Positions 13,451-25,569 are shown, numbered from the stretch's first letter. The stretch is DNA of 64,000 bases from Candidatus Hydrogenedentota bacterium (GCA_012730045.1 JAAYBR010000091.1:1-64000); one strand, 5' to 3'. Program-made: numbers and translations. The notes: a model not told the origin generated them from the sequence alone.

Positions 13451-13839
13451 GGCGCATCTCCCTCGAAGGCCGGCCCGGCACTTCCGCGAGCCGGAACGGT
13501 ACCAAGATACTCCCCGCGGAAAAAGCATGCAAGGCGGCCCGAATCGCTGGATAAGGAATGGCCGTTGATTCACTTGGGGGAAAAGGTGCCTTGCGAGTAC
13601 GCGCTGAATGAATCTGGGACGGCGAACACACCCGTTCACCCACGAGATGCGACAGAATGGGGGCGTTCTGACAAGCGATTGCTTCACTTCGTTCGCAATG
13701 ACGTGCGCTTCCGCGTCATTGCGAACGAAGTGAAGCAATCGCTTGCCCGCCGCGGCTTCGGCCCATGCTCATCTTATCCGGTGATCAGGGGGCGGTGAAT
13801 CCGTCACCCCTGTTCCCGCAGTGCTTCGCCGCCCGCCTC
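13451..13839. other. Divergent intergenic region with a large inverted repeat
   Basis: No gene is supported in this stretch between the minus-strand GH2 gene and the promoter of the plus-strand dihaem gene. Its main content is the perfect inverted repeat at 13672-13745. Both flanking frames stay open through it, giving spurious N-terminal extensions. Confidence 0.6.
13672..13745. repeat. Perfect 32-bp inverted repeat with 10-nt spacer
   Basis: The left arm 13672-13703 (starting CAAGCGATTGCTTCACTTCG) is the exact reverse complement of 13714-13745. The spacer is TGCGCTTCCG. The core GCAATGACG / CGTCATTGC is shared with copies at about 5240, 44120 and 47530, which marks this as one member of the dispersed family. 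The two arms could form a long cruciform or RNA hairpin. Confidence 0.92.
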
Positions 13840-13868
13840 TTGACATTCCCGCGCCCCCCCCACATAAT
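13840..13868 (+). promoter_or_regulatory. Promoter, TTGACA-17-CATAAT
   Basis: A consensus -35 box TTGACA at 13840-13845 and CATAAT at 13863-13868 are separated by 17 bases, 60 bases before the start of the dihaem protein gene. It is the best sigma-70-type match seen in the window. Confidence 0.7.
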
Positions 13869-13928
13869 GGGCGCGCGGGCGGTTTTGGGAAAAACGGGGC
13901 CTTTCCGGGCCGAAACGCGGGTGTTCTC

Positions 13929-16900
13929 ATGCGACATGACCTGACGCGCAAACTGTGGGCGGGGGCCTTTCTTCTGGCCTGGGCGATGACGGCGGGGGCG
14001 GCCCCGCTGGAGCGGGCCTTTGTGCTGGACGACTTCGTCGCGCCGGAGGGGGTGGCGGTGGATCCGGAAACGGGAACGGCCTACGTCTCCAACATAAACT
14101 CCGCGCCGGAAACCTACTGGCAGGACACGGGGAAGGGGTTCATCTCAAGGATGGCCCCGGGGGGAAAACTGGACAGGTTGAAGTGGGTGGACAGCACACC
14201 GGAGCATGTCCTGAACCAGCCGAAGGGGATGGCCGTGATGGCCGGGTGGCTGCATGTGGCGGACAACAAGCGACTGCTTTCCTTCGCCCTCGCGGACGGG
14301 AAACCGGGCCCGGTGGTGGAGGTGCCCGGGGCGGAGCGCCTCAACGACGTGGCGGCCTGCGACGGCAAGGTCTATGTCTCCGATGTGGTCACGGGGAAGA
14401 TTTTTCGGATGGACACCAAAGCCGGAAATGCTTTGGACGTGGTCGCGGAGATTGAGGGGGTGAACGGTCTCTATGTCCATGACGGGGTGCTATTCGCCGT
14501 TTCCTGGACCCTGCACGACCTGTACACCGTGCCGCAGGACGGTTCCGGCCCGCCGAAACCCTTCCACCTGTCCAACCGGTTCAAGAACCTCGACGGCCTG
14601 CACGTCCTGCCGGACGGCACCTTTCTCGTGTCGGACTATGCGGGGGGCAAGGTCTTCGTTGTGTCGGCGAACCGCCGCCGGGCGCGGCCCGTGGCGGAGC
14701 TGTCCACGCCCGCCGACATCGGCGTGGACCCTGCGCGCGGGTGGCTCTACGTGCCGCAGTTGGAGTCGGGCAAGGTGGCCGGATACCGCCTGGGGAAACT
14801 CGCGGCGGCGGGGGAGGGGACGCCCCTCGCCCTGCTGGAGTATGACCAGCTCCGGGGCCAGATCGTGGACCGGAACAGGGGGGACAACGCCCGCCTCGCC
14901 CGCGAGGCGCACCGGCCCGAGGCGCTGATCCTGGAGACGGACCGCACGCCCGTGGACATCGTGTGGCGGCGCACGCGTGCCCTGCTTGCCCACCTGCAAA
15001 CCATGCCGGACGCGCCGGACCTGGCGCACGCGGCGGCGGCGCTGGAACGCTTGCGCCCCGATGTGGAGCGCCTCCAGCGCGAGGAAACGCCCGACCCCGC
15101 AGAACTGCGTGGGGTCTTCGGCCAAATCACGGCCCTCCGCCGCGAGATCGCCTTCGCCAACCCCCTGCTGGACTTTCAGGACATTCTCTTCCTCAAACGG
15201 CACCGGTCCATCTACGAGCACATGTGCGACCAGTATTACGGTATCACCGCCCGTCCCGGAGGCGGCCTCTTCGTGCTGGAGGACGCCTTTGGCGGCGCGC
15301 CGCGCGTGCGCGACGTGCTGGCGGAGGCCGTGGTGGGGCGGGGCCGCCTGAAGGGGGAGGCCCTGCGCGGTGGCGTGTCGCCCGCAGTGCTTTCCTACGA
15401 CGGCGAGGGCCTTCTGACGCAGGAGGGCGACCCCGGCGGCGGCGCGTTCCTCTCCCCGGAGCTGTCCTACGACGGGAAACAGGTGCTGTTCTCCTACGTC
15501 GAGTGCCGCGGCGATCCCCGCCACAACTTCCGCAGGGAGGAGCCCGGCAACTACTGGGAGAACCCGTGGGACCCCGGCCGCGCCTATCATGTCTTCAAGG
15601 TGAACATGGACGGCACGGGGCTGGAGCAGCTCACCGACGGCCCGTGGAACGACATCCATCCCTGCTGGATGCCCGACGGGCGGGTGGTGTTCGTCTCCGA
15701 GCGGCGGGGCGGCTTCCTGCGCTGCGGGCGCGTGTGCCCGACCTACACGCTCTACCAGATGAACGCGGACGGCGGCTTCGTCCGCCCCTTCAGCTACCAC
15801 GAGACCCACGAGTGGCTGCCCAGCGTGGACCACAACGGCATGGTCGCCTACACGCGCTGGGACTACGTGGACCGCGACAGCGACATCGCCCACCACCTCT
15901 GGCTGGCCTATCCCGACGGCCGCAACCCCCGCAGCCCCCACGGCAACTACCCCCGCGTGCGCGAGTCCCGGCCGTGGATGGAGATGTCCATCCGAGCCAT
16001 CCCCGGGTCGCACAAGTACATCGCCACGGCGGCCACGCACCACGGCCAGCACTTCGGCTCCCTCATCACCATTGACCCGCGCATCGAGGACGACCATTCC
16101 GCCGGCCAGCTCCGGCGCATCACCCCCGAGGCGATGTTCCCCGAAGCCGAGGAGGCACCCGGCGTTCCCCGGAAGCCCCGCGGCGGCGGCGGCAAGGGCC
16201 AGGTCTACGGCACCCCGTGGCCGCTGAATGAGGATTTCTATCTCGCCGTGTACGACCCCGGCGAGAGGCATTACGGCATCTATCTTGTGGACGGGTTCGG
16301 CAACCGGGAACTGGTCCACCGCGACCCGGACATCGCCTGCTCCAACCCCATCCCCCTGAAACCGCGCCCCACGCCGCCGGTGATTCCCGTGCAGACCAAG
16401 TACGCCGAGCGCCCGGAGGACCAGCCGAAAACCGGCACCGTCTCCGTGATGAACGTCTACGACTCCCGGCGTCCCTTTTCCGGGGGCACGAGGATTAAAG
16501 AACTGCGCGTGATCCAGCTCTTCGCCAAGTCCACCCCCGCGCCCGGCGCGCCGAACATTGGAAAGGGCGACGAGTCCATCGCGCGCGGGTCTCTCGGCAC
16601 GGTGCCCGTGGAGGAGGACGGCAGCGTCCATTTCGAGGCCCCCGCCGGGGTGTCCTTCTACTTCCAGGCGCTGGACGAGAACGGGGTGGCCGTGCAGACC
16701 ATGCGCTCCGCCACCTATGTGCATCCCGGCGAGCGCCTCTCCTGTGTCGGCTGCCATGAGCACCGGCAGGGCGCCCCCGTCACGCCGCAGACCCAGCCGC
16801 TCGCCCTGCGAAAGCCCCCCGCCCGGCTAAAGCCGGAGCCGGAGGGCTCCTTCCCCCTCCAATTCTCCCGGCTGGTCCAACCGGTGATTGACGCCAAATG

Positions 16901-17261
16901 CGCCGAATGCCACCGCACGGAAAAGAACGCCCCCGACCTGTCCGGGGACACCTTCGGCGAGCACGGCTGGTCCCAGGCCTTCCTTTCCCTCGTTTCCCAC
17001 GCCTGGGCCAAGCACGGCGGAAACGGCACGGGGCTGGAGCGCAACAAAACCTCGTACTCCATCCCCGGCGAGGTCGGCGCGCGCGCCTCGAAGCTCTACC
17101 CCATGCTGCAGGCCGGGCACCACGGCGTCGAACTCACGCCGGAGGAAATGCGCCGGTTCAGCCTCTGGCTCGACGCCAACAGCGTCTTCTATGGCGCCTA
17201 TCACGACACCCTCGCCCAGGCGAAGGGGGAGGTGGTTATCCCCCATTTGGACATGAAATGA
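13929..17261 (+). CDS. Exported beta-propeller / hydrazine-synthase-alpha-like dihaem protein
   Basis: A 1110-residue exported protein. After a signal peptide (residues ~1-24) an NHL/SMP-30-like propeller runs to about residue 300 (PEGVAVDPETGTAYVSN, DGTFLVSDYAGGKVFV). A linker is followed by a region with PD40/TolB-like blades (SYDGKQVLFSYVECRGD, MDGTGLEQLTDGPW, CWMPDGRVVFVSERRGG). The C-terminal part resembles the HZS-alpha family and holds two c-type haem motifs, CVGCH at 939-943 and CAECH at 991-995. The start at 13929 is the ATG just before the signal peptide; the ribosome binding site is weak. Members of this family outside anammox bacteria are not thought to make hydrazine. A periplasmic redox or binding role is inferred. 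It has its own promoter and ends 15 bases from a convergent gene. Confidence 0.75.
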   Translation: MRHDLTRKLWAGAFLLAWAMTAGAAPLERAFVLDDFVAPEGVAVDPETGTAYVSNINSAPETYWQDTGKGFISRMAPGGKLDRLKWVDSTPEHVLNQPKGMAVMAGWLHVADNKRLLSFALADGKPGPVVEVPGAERLNDVAACDGKVYVSDVVTGKIFRMDTKAGNALDVVAEIEGVNGLYVHDGVLFAVSWTLHDLYTVPQDGSGPPKPFHLSNRFKNLDGLHVLPDGTFLVSDYAGGKVFVVSANRRRARPVAELSTPADIGVDPARGWLYVPQLESGKVAGYRLGKLAAAGEGTPLALLEYDQLRGQIVDRNRGDNARLAREAHRPEALILETDRTPVDIVWRRTRALLAHLQTMPDAPDLAHAAAALERLRPDVERLQREETPDPAELRGVFGQITALRREIAFANPLLDFQDILFLKRHRSIYEHMCDQYYGITARPGGGLFVLEDAFGGAPRVRDVLAEAVVGRGRLKGEALRGGVSPAVLSYDGEGLLTQEGDPGGGAFLSPELSYDGKQVLFSYVECRGDPRHNFRREEPGNYWENPWDPGRAYHVFKVNMDGTGLEQLTDGPWNDIHPCWMPDGRVVFVSERRGGFLRCGRVCPTYTLYQMNADGGFVRPFSYHETHEWLPSVDHNGMVAYTRWDYVDRDSDIAHHLWLAYPDGRNPRSPHGNYPRVRESRPWMEMSIRAIPGSHKYIATAATHHGQHFGSLITIDPRIEDDHSAGQLRRITPEAMFPEAEEAPGVPRKPRGGGGKGQVYGTPWPLNEDFYLAVYDPGERHYGIYLVDGFGNRELVHRDPDIACSNPIPLKPRPTPPVIPVQTKYAERPEDQPKTGTVSVMNVYDSRRPFSGGTRIKELRVIQLFAKSTPAPGAPNIGKGDESIARGSLGTVPVEEDGSVHFEAPAGVSFYFQALDENGVAVQTMRSATYVHPGERLSCVGCHEHRQGAPVTPQTQPLALRKPPARLKPEPEGSFPLQFSRLVQPVIDAKCAECHRTEKNAPDLSGDTFGEHGWSQAFLSLVSHAWAKHGGNGTGLERNKTSYSIPGEVGARASKLYPMLQAGHHGVELTPEEMRRFSLWLDANSVFYGAYHDTLAQAKGEVVIPHLDMK

Positions 17262-17276
17262 GGCCGAAGACGTGCC

Positions 17277-17996
17277 CTACTTGGGCGACACGGCCACCAC
17301 GGTGACCAGGACGGCAAAGCCCAAGGCCAGAAGCACCTGCCAGACGGTCGCCCCAAACCCGTCCGACATCTCGTGAAAGCGCCGGATTTCCACGGTCCGG
17401 GGCACCACGGTGAACAGGTCGGCGAAGCGGAAACGGGTCTCGTCCCCCAGGGTCATCCAGAATTTCCCGGAACCGCCCTCGGGCAGGAAGCCCACCAGAA
17501 AGGCGCGGCCGGCGGAAACCGGGGCGAGTGCGTCCGCGGTAAACATCCAGCTCTGGGTGCCGGTGAACCCGTCTTTCCCGTCGGCCACCGCCTGGTCCGC
17601 CGAATTGTAGACAATGGCCCCATAGCCCGGGGGAATGGGGAAGGGGAGGGGGGGCTCGGGCTGGGGCAGGCCCGGCGCGACCAGGGCCGCGCAGGGGCGC
17701 AGCAGGCGGTAGGGCTCCAGCTTGGGCACTCCCATGCGGACCGTCAGGGGTTTCTGATAGCTTCCCTCAAAGGCAAACCACAGGGCGGGCGCCGCCGCCG
17801 TCGCGTTGTGGTAGCCGATTTGCGTCCGGTCCGTGTCGGCAATCTCGTGGGGAGTGGTGAGGGAAGTCTCCCCGCCGTTCACCACAACCACGCGGTGGGT
17901 CCACGGGGAGGGAGCCTTCTCCTGCTCCTGGGCTCTGGCGCCTGCGCAGACAAAAACAATCAAAAACGCAAAACATGAGGCTAAAAACCCCTTCAT
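17277..17996 (-). CDS. Secreted, C-terminally membrane-anchored protein of unknown function
   Basis: A 239-residue protein that I do not recognise. It has an N-terminal signal peptide (LASCFAFLIVFVCAGARAQ) and a single C-terminal hydrophobic segment (VWQVLLALGFAVLVTVVAV) ending in a short basic tail. Most of the chain should therefore be outside the cytoplasmic membrane. The middle has an Ala/Pro-rich stretch (PGLPQPEPPLPFPIPPG) and a region around GRAFLVGFLPEGGSGKFWMT. AAGGAG lies 6-7 bases before ATG 17996. It follows the Trx/TPR/CsgG-like gene by 64 bases on the same strand, so it may be the last member of the protease-kinase cluster. The gene order supports this link; homology does not. 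Confidence 0.6.
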   Translation of the reverse strand: MKGFLASCFAFLIVFVCAGARAQEQEKAPSPWTHRVVVVNGGETSLTTPHEIADTDRTQIGYHNATAAAPALWFAFEGSYQKPLTVRMGVPKLEPYRLLRPCAALVAPGLPQPEPPLPFPIPPGYGAIVYNSADQAVADGKDGFTGTQSWMFTADALAPVSAGRAFLVGFLPEGGSGKFWMTLGDETRFRFADLFTVVPRTVEIRRFHEMSDGFGATVWQVLLALGFAVLVTVVAVSPK

Positions 17997-18060
17997 TCAT
18001 CACTCCTTCCGTTGGCTCTCGCGCGGGGATCGGCGCAAAAACGATAGAGACGCCCCCGAA

Positions 18061-19986
18061 TCAGGTGCCCGCTTCGGGGGGAAGTCCCTTGATTTTCATT
18101 TCCTTCTCAAACACGGCGCCTTCCTGCCGCGCCGTTACCTTGCACACCGCGTACTCGTCATTCACTTCCGTCACCGTCAGTTTCCCCACCGGCACCTGCC
18201 GCCGCGCGATCACGCGGCCGCCGACTTCCACAGGCGCGCCCTCTTTGAGCACGCTGAACCCGTCCCCAACAGCCACGCCGTGGCGGGAACCGAGATTCAC
18301 AATCACGGCGGCATCACTAGATGCATCCGCAATCAGCCCTTTCAGTTCCCGTTTTTCGGCAAAATCGCCGACAATTTTCGCCGTCAGCGCGGCAATGGCC
18401 GGGCCGGGGTCGTTTTCTTGGAGGATTTCCGACGCCTGCAGGGCGATCTCGGTGGTTTCCGTGTCCACCATCCGCAGGTAGGCGGTCACCTGGGCCCCCG
18501 TCCGGACAAACGAGACAAACCCCAGCGCGCCGGCGGACAGCACGCGGCCCAGCCGCCGCTGAACATCGCCGGAGGTCAGGTCGGAGCTGCCAAGGTCCAG
18601 TTCCTGAAGGAGCTGGTCGAGCATCGCCCGCTCCACCACCGTGGCCTTGCCGGAAGCCTGAACCCCCGCCTCCAGCTCGTGAATCACCAGGCGGTCCATT
18701 CCGGAACGGTCAAAGACCATCGCACCCCCCTCGCCGGTGGGGAGGAAGGCCAGCACGAGCGGGGCCGTGGACCAGGCATCGCGCGCGTCCAGGGCGCCGC
18801 TCTCCTTCATCTGGCGGTAACGCGCGCCCAAATCCGCAATCTGCGACTGGATCAGTTCGCCCCGTTTCGTGTCGTTGGCGGCGGCCAGTTCCGCAGCCAC
18901 CTGCTTGAGCAGCAGGGCGGCTGTCGGATCACCCCCCGACGTCTCAACCGCCTTCTCAAGGGCCTGTTTCGCCTCTTCGAGGTTGCCGGTGGCGCGCAGG
19001 GCGGCGCCCTCGTTGCTCAGGGCCACAACGTTGTACGGGTCCAACGCGACCGCCTCCCGGTACTGTCCCGCGGCCTCCTCAGGCTTTCCGGCCGTCTCGG
19101 CCACCCGCCCCTTGAGGTTGGCCACTTCGGACTGCTGCCACGCCGGCACCGTGCCCGCGTCGGCGGGCAGGGCCGCAACGGCCTCGTCTACCTTGCCGTC
19201 CCGGGCCAGCGCGGCGGATTTCAGGGCCGCCGCATAGGGGTCGCCCGCCGCCTTGTCGGCGTTCTCAACGGCGGCCTTCGTGTCGCCGCGCTCCAGGGAG
19301 ACCCGGGCGAGGCCCGTCGCACTGGCGATTTCCCCAAACTCGCTCTCGGCGGCGTCGAGTTTCCCCTGCGACAGCAGGACATAGCCCTTCAACTCGCGGG
19401 TTTCCCTGTCGCCGGACGCCGCCACGGCCTCCTCCACAATCGGCAGGGCCTCGGCCTTGCGCTTCCGGAACAGGTTCTCCGCGAGGGAGGCCATCAGTTT
19501 CGCGGTCGAACTGCCGCCCCCGGAGAGCACCTGCTCCACCATCCGGTCCTCGTCCGCCCGCACGAAAACGGTCATGGGCAGGGTCTTCGCGGCCTCCAGC
19601 ACGGAACGGTCCTCCAGCGAGGCGGGGTCCATCACGTGGTAGGTGATCCCCATGCGGGCCGCGAAGTCCGCCAGTTCCTGCTTTTCCTCGGCGAGGCCGA
19701 GGGCGATGATGCGGAACTTGTCCGCCCCGTGCGTGGCCTGGAGGTACTGGAGCTTCGCGGCGATGTCCTCGCCCGTGTTCTTGGAGAAGAAATAGAGGAT
19801 GACGAGGTAGGGGTTCTCCTTCACCACCGAGGAGAGCCGCACCGCCTGCCCGGAAAGGTCCAGCCCGGCGATTTCAGGCGCCGGACTTCCCTTGACAAAC
19901 TCGGCCGCACCGGCGGATATGCCGCCCGCCACGGCGAGGACGGCCAGGGCCGCCGCGAGAACGCGGAAAAACATGACTGTTTTCAC
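18061..19986 (-). CDS. Exported Cys-less thioredoxin-fold / TPR / CsgG-like protein
   Basis: A 641-residue protein with a signal peptide (VLAAALAVLAVAGGISAGA). An AhpC/TSA-type thioredoxin fold follows at about residues 30-165 (PAPEIAGLDLSGQAVRLSSV). Where the CxxC should be, the sequence reads FFSKNTGED, so it cannot do thiol chemistry, although the cis-proline (TLPMTVFV) is kept. TPR-like helices run to about residue 400. A CsgG/FlgO-like alpha/beta domain follows (VFDRSGMDRLVIHELEAGVQ, VVERAMLDQLLQEL). The GTG at 19986 is preferred because AGGAGG ends 6 bases upstream; the ATG at 19974 is the alternative. It is 93 bases downstream of the kinase gene. It may be a periplasmic or outer-membrane scaffold. 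Confidence 0.68.
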   Translation of the reverse strand: MKTVMFFRVLAAALAVLAVAGGISAGAAEFVKGSPAPEIAGLDLSGQAVRLSSVVKENPYLVILYFFSKNTGEDIAAKLQYLQATHGADKFRIIALGLAEEKQELADFAARMGITYHVMDPASLEDRSVLEAAKTLPMTVFVRADEDRMVEQVLSGGGSSTAKLMASLAENLFRKRKAEALPIVEEAVAASGDRETRELKGYVLLSQGKLDAAESEFGEIASATGLARVSLERGDTKAAVENADKAAGDPYAAALKSAALARDGKVDEAVAALPADAGTVPAWQQSEVANLKGRVAETAGKPEEAAGQYREAVALDPYNVVALSNEGAALRATGNLEEAKQALEKAVETSGGDPTAALLLKQVAAELAAANDTKRGELIQSQIADLGARYRQMKESGALDARDAWSTAPLVLAFLPTGEGGAMVFDRSGMDRLVIHELEAGVQASGKATVVERAMLDQLLQELDLGSSDLTSGDVQRRLGRVLSAGALGFVSFVRTGAQVTAYLRMVDTETTEIALQASEILQENDPGPAIAALTAKIVGDFAEKRELKGLIADASSDAAVIVNLGSRHGVAVGDGFSVLKEGAPVEVGGRVIARRQVPVGKLTVTEVNDEYAVCKVTARQEGAVFEKEMKIKGLPPEAGT

Positions 19987-20079
19987 TTGGGACCTCCTCG
20001 CTGCTTCCAGAGGGCGCGCCGCGCCCCGTTTTCTCAATTATAGCACCTGGCGCGGCGGCGCGAAGGGGCGCGCGGCCCG

Positions 20080-21678
20080 TCATTCCCCGAAGAGGAGAAA
20101 AAGCTGCGCGTTCTTCCATTCCGGGAAGGACTGGGTTTTGTCCGCCAAGGGCTCGCTCTCGCTGCTTTCCCGTATTTGGAAACGGACGCTTTCGGCGGAC
20201 TCGGGAATCCGGAGCTGGACATAGCCGTTGTCCGCGAGCGGCTCCGTGGCGTACTGGATGGTTTCGTCGTCCCCGCCAGAAGCGCTTACCACGACCTCGC
20301 GGCCTTGCAGAAACTCGATCTTTCCCTCCGCCATCCCCGCCTGGATGAAGGCTTGGCGGGTCAGGTCTGTTGCCAGATTCTCAAATTCAATTGCCAGCTC
20401 GCGGTCCTGCGTGGTGTACACATAGACCGTCACCTTGACCTCCCGTGCCGGGGCGGGGGACGCGGACGCGCTGTCGGTGACGGAAGGGGGGGCGGATGGA
20501 GCGGACTTGTCGGAGAAAAGCAGCGTCCCCCCTGCCGCCAGCAGAAGGGCGGCCACGATTCCCGCAAACAGGAGGAACTTGTTCTTGCCCGGGGCGGGGG
20601 AGGGGCGAACGCCGGGTTCTGACGCCCCCTCGGGCGGCGGACCGGCGAGGGTCTGCACTGTGGCCGCCTGCCCCGGCGGGGGCGGTCCGGCCACTGTGGC
20701 CTCCATGCCGCCGCCTGCGGCGGGCGGGGGCGTCGCCGTCCCCGTGGCACCGGGGTCCGTCACCCCTGCCGGGGGCTGTCCGACCAGGGTGCTCTCCAGC
20801 GCGCGGCCCTCCTCTAGAAGCACGGCCTCGTCCGGCTGGGGCTTGAGCGACTCGCGCAGCGCGGCGGCGAGAGCCCTTCCGGAGGAATACCGGTCATTCG
20901 GCGCCTTGGCGAGGACCTTGAGGGCCACCCTGCCCAGCGCGGCGCCAACGGAGAAATTCAGCTCGTTCGGGGCGACGGGGGCGCTCTTCAGCACGTGGTG
21001 CATGATGGTGCCGAAGGCCTCCCCCGGGAAGGGGCGCTCCCCCGTGAGCAGCTCGTAAAGAATGATGCCCAGCGAAAAGAGGTCCGACCGTCCGTCCACG
21101 CCATGGCCCATGAACTGTTCGGGTGACATGTAGGACGGCGTTCCTATCAGCACCCCCTCCTGGGTGAGGGAGGAGTCCTTGGTGCGGGCGATGCCGAAAT
21201 CGGCCACCTTGGGCGGGCCGTTCCGGGGCAGCATGATGTTCGCGGGCTTGATGTCCCGGTGGACGATGCCCTGGTCATGCGCGCAGGCGAGGCCCTCGGC
21301 GATCTGGGCGACAAGCTCCACCGACTCGGCCAGGGGAAAGCGGCGGCGGGAGGCAATGTGCTCCTCCAGGCTCTGCCCCTCGACGAATTCCATGGCGATG
21401 AAGGCCGTGCCGTCCTCCTCGCCCACATCATAGATCGTGATGATGTTCGGGTGGTTCAGAATGCCGGCGGCGCGGGCCTCGCGGAGAAAGCGCTCCATCA
21501 GCTCGCCCTGGTCCTCCCGGCTGCCCAGAAGCTCCGCGCGCGCCGTCTTGATGGCCACGCGCCGCCCGATGTTCGGGTCGCGCCCCTCGTAGACAACGCC
21601 CATCGCCCCCTTGCCCAGCACGCGGACAATGGGGTAGCGGCCCAGATTCTCCGGTATTTCCCTGCTGTCTTCGGTCAC
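20080..21678 (-). CDS. Hanks-type Ser/Thr protein kinase with one transmembrane helix
   Basis: A 532-residue receptor-like kinase. The N-terminal catalytic domain has every key motif: glycine loop GKGAMGVVY, VAIK lysine, catalytic loop HRDIKPANIM, DFGIA, and GTPSYMSPEQF in the activation segment. It should be active. A Pro/Gly/Ala-rich juxtamembrane linker leads to the helix FLLFAGIVAALLLAAGGTLLF at about residues 365-385. About 145 residues with no recognised fold lie outside. Start GTG 21678 overlaps the protease stop codon as GTGA, so translation is probably coupled. No PASTA repeats are present. Neighbouring proteins with TPRs, a thioredoxin fold and a protease are likely partners or substrates. 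Confidence 0.88.
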   Translation of the reverse strand: MTEDSREIPENLGRYPIVRVLGKGAMGVVYEGRDPNIGRRVAIKTARAELLGSREDQGELMERFLREARAAGILNHPNIITIYDVGEEDGTAFIAMEFVEGQSLEEHIASRRRFPLAESVELVAQIAEGLACAHDQGIVHRDIKPANIMLPRNGPPKVADFGIARTKDSSLTQEGVLIGTPSYMSPEQFMGHGVDGRSDLFSLGIILYELLTGERPFPGEAFGTIMHHVLKSAPVAPNELNFSVGAALGRVALKVLAKAPNDRYSSGRALAAALRESLKPQPDEAVLLEEGRALESTLVGQPPAGVTDPGATGTATPPPAAGGGMEATVAGPPPPGQAATVQTLAGPPPEGASEPGVRPSPAPGKNKFLLFAGIVAALLLAAGGTLLFSDKSAPSAPPSVTDSASASPAPAREVKVTVYVYTTQDRELAIEFENLATDLTRQAFIQAGMAEGKIEFLQGREVVVSASGGDDETIQYATEPLADNGYVQLRIPESAESVRFQIRESSESEPLADKTQSFPEWKNAQLFLLFGE

Positions 21679-22991
21679 TGGTGCTGTTCCTGGTTTCCGG
21701 GGCCGGCCCCGGAAAGCGCCCTGATACTGTCCGCCTCCGGCGCGTCCGGAAACCGTTCCAGATACGCCGCAAAGGCGCGGCGCGCCGCCTCCTCCTGCCC
21801 GTCGGCGAGCAGCGACACGGCGAGATTATACATCGCCGGGGGGTGTCCGGGGGCGATCCGCAGGGACTCCCGGAAGGCGTCGGCGGCCTCCGCGTGGCGC
21901 TCCGCCCGCTGGAGGGCCACCCCGAGGTCGTTCTGGACGCGGGCATCCTCCGGCGCCAGGCGCGCGGCCTCGCCGAAGCATTCCAGCGCGCCGCCGGGGT
22001 CGCCGGCCTCCAGACGGAGCAGTCCCAGATTGCGCAGCGGGGCGAGGGCCTCCGGCCGCAACTTTCGCGCGCTTTCATAGGCCGCCGCGGCCCCCTCCCG
22101 GTCGCCGCAGCCCGCGCGCGCCAGGCCGAGATTAAACCACGCCTCAAAAAAGGCCGGCAGCAGTTGCACGGCCCTCTCATACATCCGCGCCTTGTCGGCG
22201 CACGCGGCGGCGCGCACGCCCGCGTTGTAGGCCTCCAGCGCCCACAGCTCCATCTCTGTGATGCCGGGCTCCGGCGCCAGCTCCGCGTCCTCCTGCGCCG
22301 CCGCCGGGGGCCGGGGCCGCGCCACGCCCAGGCGGTCCAGCCCCGCGTGCATGCGGTCCACGGGAAGCACCACGGTCATCCAGGGCTGGTCGTTCAGCCG
22401 CCCGAGAACGATGCCGACCAGGTCGCCGCGCGCGTCAAAGACCGGCGCGCCGCTGGAACCCGGACTGGTGTTCATCTCCGCCTGGAAGACGGGCACGGAG
22501 CGGTAGGTGCGGTCCAGGCTGGACACCAGCCCCGAGACCAGGGAGAACTCCAGGTTCAGGGGGGTCGAGAGGGAGACCAGGGGCGCGCCGACCCGGAGCG
22601 ACGCGCTGCTCCCGACGGACACGGCGCCGTCAAAGCGGGCATCGGCCCGCAGGAGGGAGAAGTCCAGCGCCTCGTCCACCACCTCCGGGGTGAGGGCAAA
22701 GGCGCGGCCGTCCGCCGTCTTTCCCCGGAGGTCGTCCACGCCGCCGATCTGGTGCGCCGTGGTCAGCACAATCCCGCGCGCGTCCACCACGCAGCCGCTG
22801 CTCTGCACCGGCGCGCCCGAGTCCCGGCGCGTGCCGAAAATCACAACCGCGAGGGGGAGGTTTGCCGCGGCGATCCGCTCGGCCGGGCCGCCCGGCTCCG
22901 CGGCCGCAGACGGCGAAACGGCGGCAAACAGGACACACAGCGCGCCGGCAAGGCGCGCCGCTCTGTGCGCTGCGGTCCAAAGTCTTTCCAA
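21675..22991 (-). CDS. Exported trypsin-like serine protease with TPR repeats
   Basis: A signal peptide is followed by an HtrA/trypsin-like domain. Its triad is visible as His in LTTAHQIG, Asp in ALDFSLLRAD and Ser in NTSPGSSGAPVFD. No PDZ domain follows. The C-terminal ~170 residues are TPRs (AYNAGVRAAACADKARMYE, FFEAWFNLGLARAGCGDREG, VQNDLGVALQRAERHAEAAD). The start is uncertain. TTG at 22991 has AGGAG 7 bases upstream and gives 438 residues beginning LERLWTAAHRAARLAG, directly at the signal peptide. ATG at 23030 gives a longer, less hydrophobic N-terminus. Its stop codon overlaps the kinase start. A stress-signalling pair of protease and kinase is a reasonable inference. Confidence 0.82.
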   Translation of the reverse strand: MERLWTAAHRAARLAGALCVLFAAVSPSAAAEPGGPAERIAAANLPLAVVIFGTRRDSGAPVQSSGCVVDARGIVLTTAHQIGGVDDLRGKTADGRAFALTPEVVDEALDFSLLRADARFDGAVSVGSSASLRVGAPLVSLSTPLNLEFSLVSGLVSSLDRTYRSVPVFQAEMNTSPGSSGAPVFDARGDLVGIVLGRLNDQPWMTVVLPVDRMHAGLDRLGVARPRPPAAAQEDAELAPEPGITEMELWALEAYNAGVRAAACADKARMYERAVQLLPAFFEAWFNLGLARAGCGDREGAAAAYESARKLRPEALAPLRNLGLLRLEAGDPGGALECFGEAARLAPEDARVQNDLGVALQRAERHAEAADAFRESLRIAPGHPPAMYNLAVSLLADGQEEAARRAFAAYLERFPDAPEADSIRALSGAGPGNQEQHQ

Positions 22992-23146: not shown

Positions 23147-23914
23147 ATGAAGAATTGGACAGTGCTGGTGGTTGTGCTGGCGGTCGCCGCGGGGGTTTGC
23201 CTTCCCGCCGCCGGGCAGGGCGTGCTTGGCGACATCATGTCGGGGGCTCTGGTCAACCCGGAGCCCGGGGTGTTCGCGTGGTATGACGTGACGGACAAGG
23301 CGACGGGGCGCCAGTTTTTCCTGCGGCAGGCCCTGGTGGGGGAGGAGAAGGTCAAGGGGAAGACCGGCTACTGGCTGGAGACGGAAATCATCCCGCAGGT
23401 GGGCTATCCCATGATCTGCAAGATGCTCCTCACGGGGCCGGCGTCCGACCCGGCCAACATCCACCGGGTGTTTCTGCGCGACGGCGCGGAGCCCGCCGAG
23501 GAGGTGAAGCCGGAGGACGCCCGGTGGGGCGGGGGCGGCGCCATGGCCTCCGGCACCCGCAGCGTGGCGGGGGAGGAGGAGCTCACCACGGCGCAGGGTC
23601 CGTTGAAGACGGAGCATGTGGTGTTTGAGCGGGAGGGGGACCGCACGGAGGTGTGGACCAGCGACCAGGCGCGGCCCATGGGCATTGTGCGCCTGGTGTC
23701 CAAGGAGGGCGAGCTGATGCTCCGCACGACGGGAAAAGGGGGCCCCGACGCGGAAAGCGCGCTGGACCGCACCTATCCCGCCCCCCCCGGAAGCGACGAC
23801 ACAAAGGTGCAGGTGCAGGTGAGGGGGCAGGAGAAATCCGACCCGCCCGCCGCCGGCGCGCCGCCTGTGCAGAAGAATTTCGGACGCAAAGGCGGGACTT
23901 CCCCGGAGAACTGA
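23147..23914 (+). CDS. Secreted protein of unknown function
   Basis: A 255-residue protein with a clear signal peptide (NWTVLVVVLAVAAGVCLPAAG). The mature part includes a segment like proteins that report on a matrix or metal state (FAWYDVTDKATGRQFFLRQA, GYWLETEIIPQVGYPMICKM), a glycine-rich loop, and a strand-rich C-terminal half (EHVVFEREGDRTEVWTSDQA). It loosely resembles periplasmic DUF4412/LolA-like beta proteins, but I cannot place it firmly. The ATG at 23147 starts the signal peptide. The frame opens at 23105 without a ribosome binding site. It is divergent from the protease gene and 116 bases ahead of the acyl-CoA synthetase. Confidence 0.6.
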   Translation: MKNWTVLVVVLAVAAGVCLPAAGQGVLGDIMSGALVNPEPGVFAWYDVTDKATGRQFFLRQALVGEEKVKGKTGYWLETEIIPQVGYPMICKMLLTGPASDPANIHRVFLRDGAEPAEEVKPEDARWGGGGAMASGTRSVAGEEELTTAQGPLKTEHVVFEREGDRTEVWTSDQARPMGIVRLVSKEGELMLRTTGKGGPDAESALDRTYPAPPGSDDTKVQVQVRGQEKSDPPAAGAPPVQKNFGRKGGTSPEN

Positions 23915-24030
23915 ACACCCCTCCGGCGCGGCGCAACCGGGTCCGTGTCCGGCGCAGGGGACACGCAGTATGCCAGCACCCCAACGGCCGCAACGCCTCC
24001 GCCGCGGCCCAACAGAAGGAATGGCCGCCC

Positions 24031-25569
24031 ATGCTGAACCTCGCGCATTTCCTGGACGTCGCCGCGAAGCGCCACGGGGACAGGACGGCGGTCCTGCTGG
24101 ACCAGATCCGCCTTTCCTATGCGGAGCTGGCGGCGCTCGCCCGGAAGACCGCGTGCATCCTGGGGGATTTCGGCGTGGGCCGGGGGGACCGCGTGGCCAT
24201 GATGATCCCGAACACCCCGCATTTCCCGGTCATTTACTACGGCATCCTGCGCCGGGGGGCGGTGGTCGTTCCGGTCAATGTGCTTTTTCAGGAGGAGGAA
24301 ATCCTCCACTATCTCAACGATTCCGGCGCGAAGGTGCTGTTCGCCTTCAAGATGTTCGAGGAACCGGCGCGGAGGGCCTTCGCGCGGGCGCCGGGCTGCG
24401 GGCGGCTGGTGATCGTGTCCACGCCCGACGATCTTGCCAAGCCGGAGGTCGGCGACAACTTCATGACCCTGCTGGGCGCCGCGGACGGCCGCTGTGACAT
24501 CGAGCAGACCATGCCGGACGACACGGCGGTGATCCTGTACACCTCCGGGACCACCGGCTCGCCCAAGGGGGCGGAGCTGACCCACTTCAACATGTTCTTC
24601 AACGCCTACCTCGCGTCGCGGGAGATTGTCCGCTGCATGCCCGAGGACGTGTTTCTGGCGGTGCTGCCCCTGTTCCATTCCTTCGGCCAGACCTGCGTCA
24701 TGAACGCGGCCATCCTGTCCGGGGCGGCGGTGACCATGCTGCCCCGCTTCGAGACGGGCAGGGCGCTGGAGGTCATCGCCCGCGACCGGGTCACCGTGCT
24801 GGCCATGGTCCCGACCATGTACTTCTTCCTGCTGAACCTGCCGCAATGGGCGGACTACGACCTGTCCAGCGTGCGCATCGCCATTTCCGGCGGCGCTGCG
24901 CTGCCGGAGGACGTCCACCGCCAGTTCCGGGAGCGCTACGGCATCACGCTGCAGGAGGGCTACGGCCTCTCCGAGACCAGTCCCGTCGCGTCGTTCACCT
25001 CGGCGGACGAGGCCGTGCGGGTGGGGTCCATCGGGCGGCCCGTCTGGGGCGTGGAGATGGGCATCATGCTTGACGAGGGCGGCCTCGCCAAAGCGGGGGA
25101 GACCGGGGAGATCGTCATCCGCGGGCACAACGTCATGAAAGGCTACCTGAACAGCCCCAAGGCGACCGCCGCAGCCATCGTGGACGGGTGGTTCCACACG
25201 GGGGACATCGGCCGGCAGGACGCCGACGGCTTCTTCTACATCCTCGACCGCAAGAAGGACCTGATCATCCGCGGGGGCATGAACATTTACCCGCGCGAGA
25301 TCGAGGAGGTCCTCTACCAGCACCCGGCCGTGCGCGAGGCCTCCGTGGTGGGCATTCCCGACCGCATCCGCGGCGAGGAGGTCAAGGTCTATGTTTCCGC
25401 CAAAGAAGGGGAGACGCTTTCGCCCGGGGAAATCCGGGCGTTTCTGGAGAAGCGCATCGCCCGGTACAAGTGGCCGAGGGAGGTGGAGGTGCTGGAGGAC
25501 CTGCCCAAGGGCCCCACGGGCAAGATTCTCAAGCGCGAGCTCAAACAGCGCGGGGCGGAGCAGGACTGA
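24031..25569 (+). CDS. Acyl-CoA synthetase (long-chain fatty acid-CoA ligase type)
   Basis: A 512-residue AMP-forming ligase of the ANL superfamily that activates a carboxylic acid, most likely a fatty acid, to its CoA ester. Visible motifs are the P-loop YTSGTTGSPKGAELTH (about residues 170-185), GYGLSETSPV, the ribose-binding DGWFHTGDIG, the hinge KKDLIIRGGMNIYPREIEE, and the C-terminal catalytic lysine in PTGKILKREL. AAGGA lies 11 bases before ATG 24031. The same frame runs upstream inside the previous gene without a start signal. The next gene is convergent and shares a long hairpin. Chain-length preference cannot be read from the sequence. Confidence 0.88.
   Translation: MLNLAHFLDVAAKRHGDRTAVLLDQIRLSYAELAALARKTACILGDFGVGRGDRVAMMIPNTPHFPVIYYGILRRGAVVVPVNVLFQEEEILHYLNDSGAKVLFAFKMFEEPARRAFARAPGCGRLVIVSTPDDLAKPEVGDNFMTLLGAADGRCDIEQTMPDDTAVILYTSGTTGSPKGAELTHFNMFFNAYLASREIVRCMPEDVFLAVLPLFHSFGQTCVMNAAILSGAAVTMLPRFETGRALEVIARDRVTVLAMVPTMYFFLLNLPQWADYDLSSVRIAISGGAALPEDVHRQFRERYGITLQEGYGLSETSPVASFTSADEAVRVGSIGRPVWGVEMGIMLDEGGLAKAGETGEIVIRGHNVMKGYLNSPKATAAAIVDGWFHTGDIGRQDADGFFYILDRKKDLIIRGGMNIYPREIEEVLYQHPAVREASVVGIPDRIRGEEVKVYVSAKEGETLSPGEIRAFLEKRIARYKWPREVEVLEDLPKGPTGKILKRELKQRGAEQD

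Follow-up and report, generated by a model that had tools for sequence, protein, structure and literature searches.

A conserved protease, kinase and thioredoxin-fold gene cluster in Candidatus Hydrogenedentota, a candidate transmembrane Ser/Thr-phosphorylation signalling module

Do a protease, a membrane-spanning kinase and an exported thioredoxin-fold protein that are encoded side by side work together to pass a signal across the cell envelope? This question is raised by a four-gene cluster in a 64,000-nucleotide stretch of DNA from Candidatus Hydrogenedentota (GCA_012730045.1 JAAYBR010000091.1:1-64000; hereafter, the window), which is contig C91 of a 97%-complete genome. On the minus strand, from position 17277 to 22991, are four co-directed open reading frames (ORFs) in the order protease, kinase, thioredoxin/tetratricopeptide repeat (TPR)/CsgG protein and transmembrane (TM)-anchored secreted protein; an initial annotation of the DNA proposed them as a possible envelope-stress signalling module. 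Using sequence and structure prediction, we find it probable that the cluster constitutes one TM signalling module based on Ser/Thr phosphorylation, in which a separate exported sensor would be coupled to the kinase and the protease would set or end the signal. The three genes at the center of this argument, with their parts, are as follows.

21675..22991, minus strand: exported trypsin-like (S1/Trypsin_2) serine protease with about four C-terminal TPRs and no PDZ domain (Pfam Trypsin_2, 1.1e-20; TPR_2, 1.2e-18; signal peptide)
21675..21678, minus strand: GTGA overlap in which the TGA stop of the protease gene and the GTG start of the kinase gene share bases, with a Shine-Dalgarno (SD)-like AGGA before the GTG (sequence)
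20080..21678, minus strand: TM Hanks-type Ser/Thr kinase; kinase domain at about residues 13-285, TM helix at 369-387, outer domain at 412-532 (Pkinase, 6e-51; one predicted TM helix)
20083..20445, minus strand: extracytoplasmic domain of the kinase, predicted as a transthyretin/CnaB-like beta-sandwich with a two-helix insertion (AlphaFold2; predicted local distance difference test [pLDDT] score 94.8)
18061..19986, minus strand: exported thioredoxin-fold/TPR/CsgG-FlgT_C protein, the third protein of the cluster (signal peptide; SD sequence GAGGAGG; Pfam domains; model pLDDT 88)
19453..19902, minus strand: ResA/TlpA-like thioredoxin fold without a CxxC motif (VIA Z 16-17.6 to FetE/ResA)
18853..19452, minus strand: TPR solenoid of the third protein (Pfam TPRs in 29/29 relatives)
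18085..18780, minus strand: CsgG-like (FlgT_M-like) and FlgT_C domains of the third protein (Pfam; Foldseek)

The genes are inherited together within the phylum. Among the 68 Hydrogenedentota genomes sampled, 33 have the third gene, 26 the protease and 33 the cluster-type kinase; the third gene is present in every one of the 26 protease-bearing genomes (Fisher 1e-12), and the kinase clade and the putative sensor coincide in 31 of the 35 genomes having either. In 20 genomes, the protease, kinase and third genes lie directly next to one another in this order; the fourth gene is downstream of the third in 11 of 27 loci. Elsewhere, the third gene has a separate location while protease and kinase remain neighbours (G009, G010, G014 and G060), the kinase and third gene are kept with no protease match (G007 and G028), or the protease and third gene have been lost while the kinase, fourth gene and divergently transcribed neighbour remain (G015); most other non-contiguous cases stop at contig edges. 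The four-gene set recognized in the initial annotation is therefore real, being far beyond chance by co-occurrence and synteny: it is found together beyond this genome, and the kinase and protease are not separate in most relatives. The lineages that separate or lose parts would suit an alternative in which the genes serve unrelated envelope housekeeping functions, are co-transcribed and keep their order through shared expression only. The same order in 20 genomes and in another phylum, the near-perfect co-occurrence and the PP2C partner in that second phylum (see below) make such independence distinctly unlikely.

Profile searches were extended to 386 genomes (the 68 Hydrogenedentota genomes plus 318 from elsewhere), with the out-of-phylum searches covering fewer than 700 of 97,973 species. 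In the 318 outside genomes no protease of this family was found, and the third gene gave partial matches only; in a wider contig scan, full-length relatives of the third gene occur, among the matches listed, mainly in Candidatus Hydrogenedentota records. One partial match (G332) led to a small second phylum, represented here by nine genomes, in which one member, G389, has the cluster (L175:3583-9140), comprising genes for a PP2C phosphatase, an exported trypsin-like protease without TPRs, a TM kinase with a PEGA outer domain, an exported thioredoxin/TPR/CsgG/FlgT_C protein and a CsgG/LpoB-like lipoprotein. In G390, also of the second phylum, the last part of the third gene precedes the same lipoprotein gene at a contig edge. 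Identity to the G389 cluster is 46% for the kinase domain and 28% for the putative sensor, which suggests an old shared organization or an old transfer. PP2C phosphatases are the usual partners of Hanks kinases; the window genome encodes four, away from the cluster. Because the kinase is co-inherited with an exported protease and a sensor-like protein, and because the same order occurs in a second phylum, the genes probably work together to pass information inward across the inner membrane.

The main argument for the third protein as the input component is that its module recurs as the outer part of TM kinases and cyclases. When the CsgG-FlgT_C region of the third protein is used as a query without the TPRs, it hits two other kinds of protein in their outer parts, namely TM kinases (E 1e-22 to 1e-28) and TM CHAT or cyclase-CHAT proteins (E 1e-36 to 1e-47). 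The fused Hanks kinases of Hydrogenedentota are approximately 810-860 amino acids long and have a TM helix between the kinase and the TPR-CsgG module (L129, L130, L131, L133, L134, L135 and L162), while proteins from other phyla (L124, L125, L126 and L127) carry a TM helix between a CHAT protease domain and a TPR-CsgG-like outer module, with a class III cyclase in L124, L125 and L127. The TPR-CsgG (FlgT_C) outer module is common to these proteins and the window protein, but is fused to the enzyme there and part of a separate exported protein here. Given these fusions and the PP2C gene of the second-phylum cluster, the inward signalling by phosphorylation that was proposed earlier, here of Ser/Thr residues, is well supported as an inference. 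According to the kinase tree, the fused kinase-TPR-FlgT proteins are not closely related to the cluster kinase. In the examined loci with room downstream of a fused kinase, a lipoprotein gene follows in which the sequence FRGRWWNYY recurs, exactly or with slight changes.

What could the third protein sense? Its start is more likely GTG 19986 than TTG 20037. The window copy gives a match below threshold for the thioredoxin fold (AhpC-TSA, 0.01); the fold is matched in 18 of 29 relatives and is confirmed by the structure model. The cysteine positions of the fold are occupied by T88 and D91 (numbered from TTG 20037) and, across the relatives, mostly by Thr/Ser and Asp/Glu, never by Cys (29/29), while cis-Pro 154 is kept in all 29. 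With no cysteine at either CxxC position in any relative, the protein falls outside the ResA/TlpA thiol-disulfide oxidoreductases, and a redox-active thioredoxin is ruled out as its function, both active-site cysteines being absent; a fold that keeps the cis-Pro and has no CxxC fits binding rather than redox work. CnoX/YbbN likewise has a thioredoxin fold followed by TPRs; the Escherichia coli protein has no oxidoreductase activity, and CnoX chaperedoxins carry functional cysteines (PMC6282202). The window protein differs from these chaperedoxins, and is not one of them, in having no cysteine in its thioredoxin domain, in being exported and in having a C-terminal FlgT-like region.

That C-terminal region gives two Pfam matches in the window protein (CsgG, 1.6e-4, barely past the Pfam cut-off; FlgT_C, 2.7e-6), with each domain found in 25 of 29 relatives. 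The CsgG match spans only profile positions 52-93 of 210 and the protein has no lipobox, which places it outside the CsgG secretion channels. A PDB sequence search with the region gave no match; the fold search alone gave one, Foldseek placing FlgT (PDB 3w1e; 8.4e-8) first for the C-terminal half. The term FlgT-M+C-like region suits the "CsgG-like" part better. Of the initial annotation's exported thioredoxin/TPR/CsgG-like protein, the export, thioredoxin fold and TPRs stand, the fold without active-site cysteines, and the CsgG label is replaced. The likeness to FlgT in the M and C domain folds might indicate a flagellar (FlgT/H-ring-like) accessory, but the window protein has a thioredoxin fold and TPRs in addition, and FlhA (PF00771) is absent from the window genome (97% complete), which hence has no flagella, and from several sensor-bearing relatives. 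The absence of FlhA excludes a flagellar role for the window genome, and we assign this explanation a negligible probability overall.

The same matches bear on the best rival explanation, a kinase-regulated assembly station at the outer membrane or cell surface, in which FlgT/CsgG/LpoB-like proteins build a periplasmic or outer-membrane structure (related to export or to peptidoglycan), the protease is responsible for quality control, and assembly is monitored or controlled by the kinase. It is favoured by the FlgT, CsgG, LpoB and FlgO-like matches, the CsgG/LpoB-like lipoprotein added in the second-phylum cluster and an AsmA/DUF748-like gene two genes past the divergent neighbour (one locus scanned). 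Against it, no export substrate or structural operon lies near the cluster, the module elsewhere forms the outer part of signalling enzymes, and the window protein has the short CsgG match and missing lipobox described above; we regard an assembly station as unlikely.

The kinase has the residues expected of a Hanks-type enzyme (PF00069), with K44, E67, D142 and D160 invariant across 24 relatives. The cluster kinases form a single clade (support 100/100), apart from the other sampled kinases of the phylum. The initial annotation was correct in describing a TM Hanks kinase; its "unknown" outer domain now has a confidently predicted fold, a beta-sandwich resembling transthyretin and pilin CnaB domains (Foldseek; VIA-align Z up to 9.0), although no function can be inferred from this fold, since such beta-sandwich arrangements are common. 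Mean identity between relatives is 16% for the outer domain versus 66% for the kinase domain, which fits a conserved output and a lineage-specific input. The PASTA kinases PknB/Stk1, with their PP2C partner, share with the window system a Hanks kinase domain, a single TM helix and an outer domain, as well as the PP2C gene in the second-phylum cluster. The window kinase differs from them in having exported protease and sensor partners and no PASTA repeats: it scores 312 bits against the PASTA kinase model (NF033483; cut-off 450), in a match that stops at residue 388, with no PASTA match. The PADLOC models PD-T4-6 and mad6 also match the kinase, as they would if this were a phage-defence kinase system, but essentially no more than the generic kinase domain is matched, the partners are exported proteins from outside the defence families, and the cluster is vertically kept and syntenic; phage defence is thus very improbable. 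A paralogue of the cluster-clade kinase in G026 (L143:2560-4800), located away from the cluster, has Lcl_C domains in place of the outer domain.

The protease agrees with the initial description of a periplasmic trypsin-like enzyme with TPRs, as Trypsin_2, TPRs and a signal peptide are all found. It has the His-Asp-Ser triad of trypsin-like serine proteases (H81, D111 and S181). Among 20 relatives, His81 and Ser181 are invariant, and position 111 holds Asp in 8 sequences and Glu in the other 12 (alignment A3), an unusual exchange for a triad acid. The conservation of these residues suggests that the protease is active; the Glu form of the triad may confer low or regulated activity. DegS and DegP (HtrA) are likewise trypsin-like envelope proteases, and DegS has a part in stress signalling. 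The window protease differs from them in having TPRs in place of PDZ domains (no PDZ match) and scores far below the curated HtrA cut-offs (TIGR02037 and TIGR02038; 63.5 bits versus a cut-off of 416).

Purine-rich SD-like sequences lie upstream of all four proposed starts (sequence inspection), including an AGGAG 8 nucleotides ahead of the TTG at 22991 from which the protease starts. The GTGA junction of protease and kinase, pointed out in the initial annotation, is present at the position listed, and translational coupling of the two genes through it is possible. Scans for intrinsic terminators and sigma-70 promoters gave matches near chance level.

In the mechanism that we propose for a single signalling module, the exported thioredoxin/TPR/FlgT-like protein would act as a separate periplasmic sensor or adaptor, with its cysteine-less thioredoxin fold and TPR solenoid binding a client protein or peptide. 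The CsgG/FlgT-like module would couple the client-bound state to the kinase by a putative contact, a job that would be intramolecular in the fused kinases and cyclases. The kinase would relay the signal inward through its small, fast-evolving beta-sandwich outer domain and phosphorylate cytoplasmic targets, and the exported protease may trim or remove the client, or the sensor, thereby setting or ending the signal. Envelope stress and damaged proteins are possible signals. In a more speculative and less likely reading, the redox-dead thioredoxin/TPR/FlgT-like receptor might capture periplasmic proteins, the protease clear them and the Hanks kinase (with PP2C in another phylum) report their load to the cytoplasm, which would be a kind of pathway not yet described.

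Several results weigh against a single module. The Fisher values for co-occurrence (1e-10 to 1e-14) ignore shared ancestry and overstate the association, because the genomes are related. The kinase persists without sensor and protease in G015 and G012, and the sensor occurs without a neighbouring kinase in genera g4 and g5, which means that the parts do not strictly depend on one another. The fused TPR-FlgT kinases form a separate clade and are not sisters of the cluster kinases, so the module has probably become associated with TM kinases on more than one occasion. Finally, distances for the kinase outer domain and for the sensor correlate weakly once the kinase domain is controlled for (best r 0.25, p 0.02, in 1 of 8 tests).

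Two further genes border the core of the cluster.

17277..17996, minus strand: secreted protein with a C-terminal TM helix (type I anchor), the fourth protein (signal peptide and TM helix; weak PPC-like beta-sandwich signal)
23147..23914, plus strand: divergently transcribed exported protein, accessory or neighbour (on the opposite strand beside the cluster in 12/27 loci)

A signal peptide and C-terminal TM helix are predicted for the fourth protein, as expected from its earlier description as a tail-anchored secreted protein; a PPC match was obtained in 2 of 11 relatives (best 1e-5). The divergent neighbour has a weak DUF3108 signal in 3 of 12 relatives (best 0.045). Beside it, an AMP-binding (acyl-CoA synthetase-like) enzyme is encoded at window positions 23653-25569 (plus strand), an adjacency kept in G002, G007 and G015. 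Past the downstream end of the cluster, window positions 13821-17261 (plus strand, opposite to the cluster) encode a 1146-amino acid protein that matches PF18582, the middle domain of hydrazine synthase alpha (5e-23), and, weakly, cytochrome c.

As the initial annotation had supposed, no described system of this composition was found in the literature searched, which mostly excluded subscription papers. The closest working analogue is PknG-GlnX-GlnH of the Actinobacteria, a conserved kinase operon with the solute-binding lipoprotein GlnH, whose link to the kinase is supported genetically (PMC6069109). Both are Ser/Thr kinase operons that encode a separate extracytoplasmic sensor, or a candidate for one. 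In the PknG system, by contrast, the kinase is soluble and depends on GlnX, a membrane protein in its own right, the sensor is solute-binding rather than thioredoxin/TPR/FlgT-like, and there is no protease. What activates most bacterial Hanks kinases is an open question. Here, a kinase is accompanied by an exported protease and by an exported candidate for a dedicated sensor, and the cluster thus offers testable ligand-receptor pairs and a route to the sensors of other orphan kinases.

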